A stretch of 33,969 bases of DNA from Phycisphaeraceae bacterium (GTDB lineage: Bacteria > Planctomycetota > Phycisphaerae > Phycisphaerales > Zrk34), in NCBI GenBank assembly GCA_028282685.1, contig JANQHK010000051.1:1-33969 (forward strand). Reading direction: 5' to 3'. The notes beneath the pieces are model-generated. The model did not search any database and was not told the DNA's origin. It was given only the letters and a program-made list of their open reading frames with translations. Below, piece after piece: positions 6,642-11,061 of the stretch (its first letter is position 1; each line of letters begins with the position of its first letter). The position numbers and the translations under genes are program-made.

Positions 6642-6669
6642 AACCCACGTCGTCCGGCGTGGGTTTTTT
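6642..6669 (+). terminator. Rho-independent terminator of the exported-protein gene
   Basis: AACCCACG and CGTGGGTT form an 8-bp stem around an 8-nt loop and run into TTTTTT. It lies 27 nt after the stop codon. Confidence 0.9.
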
Positions 6670-6675
6670 GTGTTA

Positions 6676-6835
6676 TTTCACCGCCGAGGCGCAGAGGTAC
6701 AGAGAAAAACTTATCTGACAGAATTGATAGAAGGGTTCGGGTTTTTTGAGAATAACTGTTTTTCGATCCCGTCTATTCCATTCATCCCGTCTCGTATTTC
6801 TTCGTGCTTTTGTGTCTTTGTGGTTTATTTCGTGA
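6676..6835. repeat. Composite intergenic repeat with inverted CACAGAG-like ends
   Basis: The left end reads CACCGCCGAGGCGCAGAGG then TACAGAGAAAA. The right end, read on the minus strand, gives ACCACAAAGACACAAAAG followed by CACGAAG. The two ends therefore face each other, and the middle holds degenerate 8-11-nt units (CTGACAGAATTGATAG; CCCGTCTATTCCATTCATCC). This style of unnamed intergenic repeat occurs in many bacteria, including planctomycetes. It abuts the folP start, so it forms the folP leader. Confidence 0.55.
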
Positions 6836-6844
6836 TTGCCTTTT

Positions 6845-7729: not shown

Positions 7730-7760
7730 GCAGCCACAACCCCCTTGAAGGAGCATGCCC

Positions 7761-8090
7761 ATGGCCAGCGAAGCCGTTCTCGAAATCACCGATGCCAACT
7801 TTGATGAACAGGTGGCCCAATCGGATCAGCCCGTGGTGGTCGATTTCTGGGCTGAATGGTGCATGCCCTGCCGCATGATCGCACCGATCATCGAAGAATT
7901 GGCCGAGGAATACCAGGGCAAGGCGAAGGTGGGCAAGGTCGATACCGACGCCAACCGCGAAACGGCGCTCAAGTTCCAGATCAACGCCATCCCGACGGTG
8001 ATGCTCTTCAAGGGCGGCGAGGTCGTCAAGAAGTTCGTCGGCATGACCAACAAGCAGGACATCGCCGAAGCGATCGACGAATCGCTGTAA
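7761..8090 (+). CDS. trxA: Thioredoxin with a CMPC active site
   Basis: A 109-residue cytoplasmic thioredoxin, which reduces protein disulfides and is recharged by thioredoxin reductase. The active site is WCMPC (33-37), where the usual Gly is replaced by Met. The cis-proline motif AIPTV (76-80), the buried Asp in VVDFWAEW and the FKGGEVV strand are all present, so it should fold and work as a thioredoxin, though the Met may shift its redox potential. Two ATGs are in frame, at 7755 and 7761. GAAGGAG ends 1 nt before the first and 7 nt before the second, so 7761 is the likely start. A terminator follows 35 nt after the stop. Confidence 0.93.
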   Translation: MASEAVLEITDANFDEQVAQSDQPVVVDFWAEWCMPCRMIAPIIEELAEEYQGKAKVGKVDTDANRETALKFQINAIPTVMLFKGGEVVKKFVGMTNKQDIAEAIDESL

Positions 8091-8125
8091 AGCGATTACC
8101 TGATGCACAATTATGATTAAATTGG

Positions 8126-8158
8126 AAAACGCCCACGTAAAAAATGCGTGGGTTTTTC
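8126..8158. terminator. Bidirectional terminator between trxA and the methyltransferase gene
   Basis: CCCACG and CGTGGG form a stem flanked by AAAA on the left and TTTTT on the right, so it works in both directions. It ends trxA and overlaps the stop codon of the convergent methyltransferase gene. The stem has the same core as the terminator at 6642. Confidence 0.85.
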
Positions 8159-8804
8159 AACCTACAATCCGCCAGAGATTTTTCTCATCGCCGCTGTTAT
8201 GGGCATAGGTGGGCCAATTTGGTTTGTAGTTTTCCGCCTCATTCCCCCACGTGAGCCAGCCGTCGCGCGTACCCCGTGCGAACAACTCCAGATAGGGTCC
8301 AGGGCTGCACGCCTCAATGATTTCGTATTGTTCATCTGGCTTACGCGAATGCTCACGCTTGCGTGTCTTGATGATGTTCACTTGCTTGCGGCCCGGTGTC
8401 AACGTGCGCAATTTGCCGCGTATACCGAACAAAAGAAGTTCCGTGGTGTTACGGAAATAGAATCCCACGCCCCGTCCATCCGGACCACCGTCCTTGCGTA
8501 TCTTGTGCCAGACGATGTTCGTCTTGTACTCAAAACCCCACGCCTTCATCACTTCCAGTCCCTCAGCCAACAACGCATTGGGCACCCAGAGATAAAGGTG
8601 GCTCTGCTCCGCTGCGGCAATTGAAACGGGTATCTCCTTGATTTGGCCGAGGGAGAGAGTTGCATATCGACTCAAGCGCCGATGTTCTGGAGCTACCTTG
8701 CCCGTCTTATTGGAAAAACGCCACGGCGGGTCGGCCAAAATCGTACCGCAGGATAAGTTCTGGCACTGCTGCACAAAGTCGTTGGCTGGCGAGTTCTTTT
8801 CCAT
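8157..8804 (-). CDS. MT-A70 family DNA adenine N6-methyltransferase (type II modification enzyme)
   Basis: A 215-residue S-adenosylmethionine-dependent adenine methyltransferase of the MT-A70 family, which in bacteria includes modification enzymes of the M.MunI type. Motif IV is DPPW (25-28); other family marks are LYLWVPNALL (70-79), GFYFRNTTELLLFG (114-127), the HSRKPDE segment (152-158) and YLELFAR (171-177), close to the SAM pocket. It lies 2 nt behind a BglII/BstYI-like endonuclease gene, so it should protect the GATC-containing site of that enzyme. The ATG at 8804 was chosen; a TTG at 8810 would instead overlap the endonuclease stop. Base composition is clearly AT-richer than the flanking nuo and trx genes, which suggests horizontal transfer. 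Confidence 0.9.
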   Translation of the reverse strand: MEKNSPANDFVQQCQNLSCGTILADPPWRFSNKTGKVAPEHRRLSRYATLSLGQIKEIPVSIAAAEQSHLYLWVPNALLAEGLEVMKAWGFEYKTNIVWHKIRKDGGPDGRGVGFYFRNTTELLLFGIRGKLRTLTPGRKQVNIIKTRKREHSRKPDEQYEIIEACSPGPYLELFARGTRDGWLTWGNEAENYKPNWPTYAHNSGDEKNLWRIVG

Positions 8805-8806
8805 AG

Positions 8807-9397
8807 TCAACAGCTTTCATCATACAGCGAAGATTTAATCCCAAACACAAGCACCGGGCAACCGGCGCCTCCTCCGCCCTCTATCCGAGGCAGTAGCTTC
8901 GACATATGCGTCGTTGATGCTCCATACGATGCGCCCCGACCCAAGGACTTAAAAATCTCCTGGAGCGAATCGCACCTGGTTATTATGATACCCACACTAA
9001 CCGCCCGCAGATCAAACAACAGGCGAAAATTATTCAAATCGCGATCAAAAAACGGGTCCTTGTTATTCCATTCTATTTCCAAGGCCACCTTATTTTTAAA
9101 ACAATCCACCTGATGTGTAGGTGACTCCACCACGCTGTCATCGACGTGTACCGCCGTTCTGAATTGCTTTTCTGTCCAACCCCGTTCATACAGGAATGTA
9201 TCGATGAAATGCGATACTTTGGATTTCCTTCCTCCAGGATTTACTATCCAACTTTTACACAGACGGAAATTCGTCAGTAAATCAACCAAATCTTTCCATT
9301 CGTCCGGAAAATCATTCCTCAGAATCGCGCAAGCGTGCTTCCACTCGCGAACTTCATAATTTTCGCGGATGTATTTCGGAAGAAGGTCCGTCCCCAT
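8807..9397 (-). CDS. BglII/BstYI-family type II restriction endonuclease
   Basis: A 196-residue protein matching the compact BglII/BstYI endonuclease family, whose members cut 6-bp sites with a GATC core. The putative catalytic centre is D98 in QVDCFKNK followed nine residues later by E107 in ALEIEWNNKDPFFDRD, then E109. In BglII the active residues are, as I recall, D84, E93 and Q95, so the D-x8-E spacing matches and the third position is Glu instead of Gln. Other conspicuous blocks are NFRLLFDLRAVSVGIIITR (123-141) and GRGASYGASTTHM-LLPRIEGGGG (153-177). The partner methyltransferase follows after 2 nt. Sampled 60-bp stretches are about 33-47% GC against about 68% in nuoF, supporting acquisition by transfer. 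The exact recognition site cannot be told from sequence. Confidence 0.87.
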   Translation of the reverse strand: MGTDLLPKYIRENYEVREWKHACAILRNDFPDEWKDLVDLLTNFRLCKSWIVNPGGRKSKVSHFIDTFLYERGWTEKQFRTAVHVDDSVVESPTHQVDCFKNKVALEIEWNNKDPFFDRDLNNFRLLFDLRAVSVGIIITRCDSLQEIFKSLGRGASYGASTTHMSKLLPRIEGGGGAGCPVLVFGIKSSLYDESC

Positions 9398-9452
9398 GGT
9401 ATGGCCTCACAGGATACACAAATGACTGATCTGTAAGACCTGACGATAACGC

Positions 9453-10817
9453 TTAAACCGTCGCGGATCCACCGACACTCACATTCACTTGCACCAGTGA
9501 GCTTTTGCAGCGGGATTCGAATTCGGGGCGGAATTTTTCAATTGCCGTTTTCACCGCCCAGTTGGTGCCGTCGGCCAAGCCACAGATGGTGGTGCCGGGC
9601 ATCGCGCCCATGGACCGGGCGACTTCATCGAGGATATCAAGATCGTTGAACGTGCCCTCGCCCTGCTCAATGCGGCAGAGCATCTGGTAGGCCCAGCCGC
9701 TGCCTTCGCGGCAGGGTGTGCACTGGCCGCAGCTTTCGCGCGCGAAGAAGCGGACGATGTTGCGCGTCATGGCGACGATATCGGTGTCCTCATCCATGAC
9801 GATCACACCCGCCGTGCCCAGGCCGAGCACATTGTGCTTGCGGCCGATGTCAAAATCGAGATCCGCCTGGTACTCATCGGGCCCGAGGAATCCCATGGCA
9901 ACGCCGCCGGGGATCGCGGATTTGAACTTCTTACCATTGCGCATGCCGCCGGCGTACTTGTCGATCAGTTCGCCCATCGCAATGCCCAGCTCTTCTTCGT
10001 ACACGCCGGGGCGATTGACGTGGCCGGACACGCCGAACAATTTAGGGCCGAACGAACCGGGCACATTTTCACCGAGCGTGGACGCCCGGCCGATCGAGCG
10101 GAACCACGCATCGCCGCGCTCGACGATGAACGGCAGCATGGCCAGCGTTTCGACGTTGTTGATCACGGTGGGCCGACCAAACAGGCCGGATACCGCGGGG
10201 AACGGCGGCTTGATACGCGGCCAACCGCGCTTGCCTTCGAGCGATTCGAGCAGGCCCGTTTCCTCACCGCAGATGTACGCGCCTGCTCCGCGATGCACGT
10301 AGCAGTTGAGCACCCGACCGTTCACCTGCCCGAGGATCGACTTCTGGCCAAAGATGTTGTTCGCGTACGCCTCGGCGATGGCCTGTTCGAGCACCTTGGC
10401 CTGGCGGTGATATTCGCCGCGGATGTAAATGTAAGCCGTGTCGAGATTGCACGCGTGGCAGCAGATGGCGATTCCTTCGAGCATCATGTGCGGATCGAAA
10501 TCAACGATGAGACGATCCTTGAACGTGCCGGGCTCAGACTCATCGGCGTTGACGGCCAGGTACCGCGGCTCACCATCCGGCGGCGGCAGGAACGACCACT
10601 TCAGCCCCGCGCTGAAACCCGCCCCGCCGCGCCCGCGCAATTGCGACTTCTTGATCTGCTCCACCAAGTCGGCCTGGGTGATGTCTTTTGCCTTTTTCAG
10701 GGCTTCGTAACCGCCCGTGCAGACGTACTCGTCGAACGTGACGGTCTTGCGATCATTGATATCTCCCCACGGCGGCGTGGGAATACGCTTGCAGAGGATG
10801 GGCTGTTCAAGGGCCAT
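9453..10817 (-). CDS. nuoF: NADH-quinone oxidoreductase subunit F
   Basis: NuoF (51-kDa subunit) of complex I binds NADH and FMN and carries the N3 4Fe-4S cluster, in the peripheral arm on the cytoplasmic side. The 454 residues show the glycine-rich FMN/NADH motif GRGGAGFSAGLKW, the AVNADESEPGTFKDR block, ICGEETGLLESLEG, SGHVNRPGVYE and the cluster motif ESCGQCTPCREG (about 359-370) with the fourth Cys in TTICGLADG. Length is normal for the family with a slightly long N-terminus. It lies 1 nt behind the 80-residue membrane ORF and is thus tightly coupled to it. nuoG, which usually follows, is replaced here by the restriction-modification pair. Confidence 0.97.
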   Translation of the reverse strand: MALEQPILCKRIPTPPWGDINDRKTVTFDEYVCTGGYEALKKAKDITQADLVEQIKKSQLRGRGGAGFSAGLKWSFLPPPDGEPRYLAVNADESEPGTFKDRLIVDFDPHMMLEGIAICCHACNLDTAYIYIRGEYHRQAKVLEQAIAEAYANNIFGQKSILGQVNGRVLNCYVHRGAGAYICGEETGLLESLEGKRGWPRIKPPFPAVSGLFGRPTVINNVETLAMLPFIVERGDAWFRSIGRASTLGENVPGSFGPKLFGVSGHVNRPGVYEEELGIAMGELIDKYAGGMRNGKKFKSAIPGGVAMGFLGPDEYQADLDFDIGRKHNVLGLGTAGVIVMDEDTDIVAMTRNIVRFFARESCGQCTPCREGSGWAYQMLCRIEQGEGTFNDLDILDEVARSMGAMPGTTICGLADGTNWAVKTAIEKFRPEFESRCKSSLVQVNVSVGGSATV

Positions 10818-10818
10818 G

Positions 10819-11061
10819 TTACGTATCCTGTTTGGTCGATTCTTCCATCAATTCCAAGCTTCGTGTTGCTGCCTTTCGTTCAAGCTTGTCCTGCTTTTTT
10901 CTTCTGTACCTTTCTCCGAACACCGTGCTGCGGAATGCCGCGTAGGCCAGGTAACCGGCGATCAACAGCATTGGCGTTCCAAGGATAATCCAGAGCATCT
11001 TGGGCCCGCCGGGAAAATCTTCGTTCGCTCGATGAACCGGATTAACATTTTCGGCCAGCAT
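10819..11061 (-). CDS. Small single-pass membrane protein within the nuo operon
   Basis: The gene is not recognised. The 80-residue product has a polar N-terminus, one transmembrane helix (about 21-42, MLWIILGTPMLLIAGYLAYA) and a highly basic, then acidic, helical tail (RYRRKKQDKLERKAA). Positive charges after the helix suggest an N-out, C-in topology. It ends 1 nt before nuoF starts and follows the 61-residue ORF, so it is almost certainly co-transcribed with nuoDEF. It does not match nuoA, nuoJ, nuoK or any other complex I subunit I can name. It could be an accessory or assembly factor; this is inferred from position only. Confidence 0.65.
   Translation of the reverse strand: MLAENVNPVHRANEDFPGGPKMLWIILGTPMLLIAGYLAYAAFRSTVFGERYRRKKQDKLERKAATRSLELMEESTKQDT

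Follow-up and report, generated by a model that had tools for sequence, protein, structure and literature searches.

The window, i.e., the whole 33,969-nt stretch of Phycisphaeraceae contig JANQHK010000051.1 that was analyzed, very probably carries a complete two-gene type II restriction–modification (R-M) system of the Nph3I kind, acquired horizontally between nuoF and a thioredoxin gene (trx). Most likely, the pair is an ordinary member of a widespread and already characterized kind of bacterial defense; its exact specificity, activity, transcription, and host killing we infer.

A Restriction Endonuclease Gene and a Methyltransferase Gene Follow nuoF

A preliminary description of this DNA had placed an endonuclease-like gene (R) and then an MT-A70 gene (M) behind nuoF, and the reading frames do lie there (Table 1), with gaps of 55 bp before R and 2 nt between R and M and with matches to PF09195 and PF05063 that are beyond chance. 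An alternative TTG start is possible for M at 8810. Each of the two protein families is present in one copy in this genome.

Table 1. Features of the R-M locus and its flanks (positions in the window)
Feature	Coordinates	Strand	Basis and remarks
R, type II restriction endonuclease gene, BglII/BstYI family	8807..9397	minus	PF09195, predicted fold; 196 aa, ATG start
M, MT-A70-family adenine methyltransferase gene	8157..8804	minus	PF05063, DPPW motif; 215 aa, ATG start
Spacer, nuoF stop to R start	9398..9452	minus	55 bp; possible Shine-Dalgarno GAGG
nuoF, intact, upstream of the R-M pair	9453..10817	minus	PF01512, E 4e-43; 79% identical to nuoF of the relative G400
trx, transcribed toward the nuo operon and bordering the insertion on its other side	7755..8090	plus	PF00085, E 7e-35; adjoins nuoF in G400
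Stem-loop CCCACG-loop-CGTGGG flanked by A/T runs	8119..8156	.	Probable bidirectional terminator

Two further observations concern other parts of the window. Between nuoE and nuoF, an 80-aa ORF (10819–11061, minus strand) had no family match over the cut-off, and a weak homologue of it is found at the equivalent place in genome G399 (L077:2404–2799). Short sequences similar to the two ends of the AT-rich intergenic stretch before folP (6665–6840) recur at other places in the genome sample (L103, L104, L110, L119, and L120), and the sampled relatives have none; the stretch is possibly a small dispersed repeat.

R Has a Predicted BglII/BstYI Fold, and M Is an MT-A70 Protein

R matched PF09195 (Endonuc-BglII) over the whole profile (positions 1–163 of 163; E 4.2e-46; 157.1 bits vs. 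a curated cut-off of 26), and its AlphaFold model, built from 42 sequences, reached a mean pLDDT of 93. A fold search with this model returned BglII (AGATCT; 1d2i, Z 17.5), BstYI (RGATCY; 2p0j, Z 17.4), and BamHI (Z 14.6), while the next fold outside this group scored only Z 5.4. The BglII/BstYI-type identity proposed for R is thus borne out by family and predicted fold alike. R nonetheless differs from BglII and BstYI in showing only ∼18% identity in structural alignment and in carrying ExE rather than ExQ, and a PDB sequence search with R alone or with the R profile (A1) retrieved neither enzyme. Since the profile does not reach either of them at the sequence level, the link rests on Pfam and the fold. 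No NCBIfam match was obtained for R or M, and PADLOC made no call for R.

The putative active site of R is D98/E107-x-E109. These three residues are invariant across the 42 sequences, and the catalytic Asp and Glu show the spacing D-x8-E-x-(Q/E), which we take to be common to R and BglII. By this spacing, and not by residue-by-residue superposition, D98, E107, and E109 presumably correspond to D84, E93, and Q95 of BglII, with Glu replacing Gln in R.

M matched PF05063 (MT-A70) with an E-value of 7.8e-31 (107.8 bits vs. a cut-off of 23.9) and was labeled a type II methyltransferase by PADLOC. Its DPPW motif and other conserved positions are kept in 19 of 19 aligned homologues, and among solved structures those closest to M belong to MT-A70 family proteins and METTL3. 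M.BglII, the methylase of the BglII system, belongs to another methylase class.

The Pair Is Predicted to Act on RGATCY

The R protein is 70% identical to R of Nitratiruptor phages NrS-2 and NrS-3, and M is 68% identical to M of NrS-2. When the NrS-3 pair, Nph3I, was produced by cell-free synthesis, R.Nph3I cut RGATCY and was fully blocked by 6mA, while M.Nph3I generated RGm6ATCY; BstYI differs from Nph3I in not being blocked by 6mA (PMC10734518). The two pairs share the same R family, an adjoining MT-A70 methylase, the co-stranded order R then M, and an M gene devoid of RGATCY. They differ in that Nph3I resides in a temperate phage and the window pair on a chromosomal contig where no phage gene adjoins it, in that the R gene has one RGATCY site in NrS-3 and none in the window, and in that specificity was assayed for Nph3I and is predicted for the window pair.

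At ∼70% identity, we predict that the window pair works like Nph3I, with cutting at RGATCY and protection by RGm6ATCY. An R dimer would cut unmethylated RGATCY, and hence incoming unmethylated DNA, while M would convert the host sites to RGm6ATCY, on which R would be blocked; a cell that lost the pair would tend to die. A GATC-centered site combined with an adenine methylase, as suggested previously, is therefore the likely specificity by analogy, the nearest characterized relative being Nph3I with its RGATCY site and Gm6ATC block.

A pair of the same family whose site differs from RGATCY or is narrower (AGATCT, GGATCC, or some other GATC-centered hexamer) is an unlikely but serious alternative. 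BamHI has the same fold as BglII and BstYI with a different outer base in its site, so that the three enzymes differ in this base despite a common fold, and at only 70% identity to the assayed R.Nph3I a shift among AGATCT, GGATCC, and RGATCY is conceivable. Against such a shift, R and M are both close to an RGATCY pair, and all forms of RGATCY are similarly depleted in the 317-kb genome sample (observed/expected 0.32–0.50), although this last point is unspecific, as the genome G060 shows.

RGATCY as a whole had an observed/expected ratio of 0.46 in that sample, the lowest of 32 comparable hexamers. However, the ratio was also 0.46 in G060, which belongs to the same taxonomic family and lacks the pair; the depletion therefore says nothing about R activity, and RGATCY avoidance was rejected as proof of it. 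The 1,362-bp insert contains no RGATCY site, against about 0.5 expected at the genome rate, a difference that is not significant. Depletion of RGATCY and YAGCTR was seen in several genomes of the taxonomic family, whether the pair was present or absent (L101–L120; relatives L233–L272).

Less probable still is a decaying or inactive system, in which R no longer cuts and M acts as a solitary methylase. Stop-broken R genes do occur in relatives, e.g., in G037, but both reading frames in the window are full length and retain every invariant residue.

R Ahead of M Is the Normal Gene Order

Homologues of R were found in 53 of the 397 class genomes, on 32 viral contigs, on 13 plasmids, and in phages, and a scan across the genomes of bacteria and archaea gave at least 576 matching stretches. 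An MT-A70 gene lay within 2.5 kb of R in 108 of the 112 homologous loci that were fetched: downstream on the same strand in 86, which are spread over many phyla and viral contigs, downstream on the opposite strand in 21, and upstream in 1; of the others, one had a D12-type methylase and three reached contig ends. Where the two genes are co-stranded, the R-M gap ranges from −55 to +12 nt in class relatives and phages. The preliminary description had regarded R before M as unusual; with 86 of 112 loci arranged in this way, it is instead the normal layout of this R-M family. The EcoRI and Eco29kI systems likewise have R ahead of M in one operon and differ from the window pair in their unrelated specificity and in the separate M promoters inside R, and the antisense RNAs, that are known there (PMC3874152).

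Two plasmid homologues of R, in Dyadobacter and Acinetobacter (51–59% identical), are accompanied by a D12-type adenine methylase rather than by MT-A70, and two unrelated adenine methylase classes thus serve one endonuclease family. R homologues 51–61% identical to the window R and paired with a D12-type methylase are located at L068:4001–5822, L069:1084–3240, and L206.

A promoter search over positions 8050–9600 yielded one promoter-like site against 1.2 expected, and none was found in the 55-bp spacer. A signal no higher than chance fits read-through from the nuo operon, without proving it. Since the pair lies upstream of a shared terminator, we predict that it is probably transcribed, at least in part, by nuo read-through.

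The Pair Is Foreign to the Genome

We compared the composition of both genes with a background of 317 kb of the genome, sampled by stretches (mean GC 61%). Among stretches of 591 nt, R ranks in the lowest 1.25% with its GC content of 46.7%. M, with 54.0%, falls in the lowest 6% and is about the same as nearby nuoD (54.3%). The view that both genes are clearly AT-richer than their flanks consequently holds for R and is overstated for M. Across 69 homologous loci, GC content was below that of the flanks for R in 94% and for M in 86%, a tilt that is usual for this R-M family.

The foreign origin previously proposed for the pair is upheld by R being AT-rich, by the absence of PF09195 and MT-A70 from all eight other sampled genomes of the taxonomic family, and by the identity of R, up to 77%, to proteins of other phyla (Bacteroidota and Myxococcota MAGs). 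Relatives with the pair at this very locus had been named as evidence to the contrary, and a search for them found none among these eight genomes. NuoF, by comparison, is mostly 59–79% identical within the order, and since R reaches 77% across phyla, horizontal transfer is well supported. Trees set the R-M pair amid sequences from several phyla. The R tree and the M tree differ in topology, so strict co-inheritance of the two genes is not supported. R-M systems are known to move between genomes (PMC3031569).

The Pair Occupies a Short Gap between nuoF and trx

In G400, the site is empty: nuoF and trx are convergent and 57 bp apart, and the space between them contains a single strong stem-loop that is flanked by A/T runs on either side. 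A similar stem-loop stands between M and trx in the window, where nuoF is intact, which places the pair after the nuoF stop and before the terminator. The stem-loop is probably the terminator common to M and trx and the counterpart of the one directly after nuoF in G400. No integrase or transposase was seen at the pair in the window, and a search for flanking repeats or a target duplication gave only short, chance-like repeats. We therefore propose that the pair entered the short gap between the convergent nuoF and trx genes, upstream of the shared terminator, by horizontal transfer and with neither an integrase nor a transposase attached.

It had also been suggested that the pair takes the position of nuoG, and nuoF–nuoG adjacency is indeed common in other bacteria, but interruption of an ancestral nuoF–nuoG junction can be set aside with near certainty: none of the 27 relatives for which sequence past nuoF was available had nuoG in the ∼1.4 kb that follow, G400 with its empty site has the order nuoF, terminator, trx, and the genome's own nuoG-like gene (398 bits, less than the equivalog cut-off) is on contig C29. 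At this locus, nuoG was thus neither replaced nor displaced by the pair.

The cargo of the nuoF–trx gap varies among members of the taxonomic family. In G023 (L078:4495–5824), the gap holds an HTH_66/DUF433 and PIN_10/DUF5615 gene pair, likewise before a stem-loop; in G398 (L073:5122–6564), it holds ABM-domain and M28 peptidase genes on the other strand; and in G401 (L080:2903–3693), it holds a His-rich hypothetical ORF. One might imagine the gap as a recurrent docking site in the taxonomic family, where cargo such as the R-M pair here and the PIN-like/DUF433 toxin–antitoxin-like pair in G023 settles after the nuoF stop but ahead of the shared terminator, and defense or addiction genes would thereby be expressed with respiratory complex I; we consider this broader idea doubtful.

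The preferred reading, a horizontally acquired Nph3I-like R-M system, adds a chromosomal member to a kind hitherto known from phage and is otherwise routine. With the empty site preserved in a relative, the locus is a clear example of how an R-M pair on its own, roughly 1.3 kb long, entered a chromosome without a recognizable mobile element.
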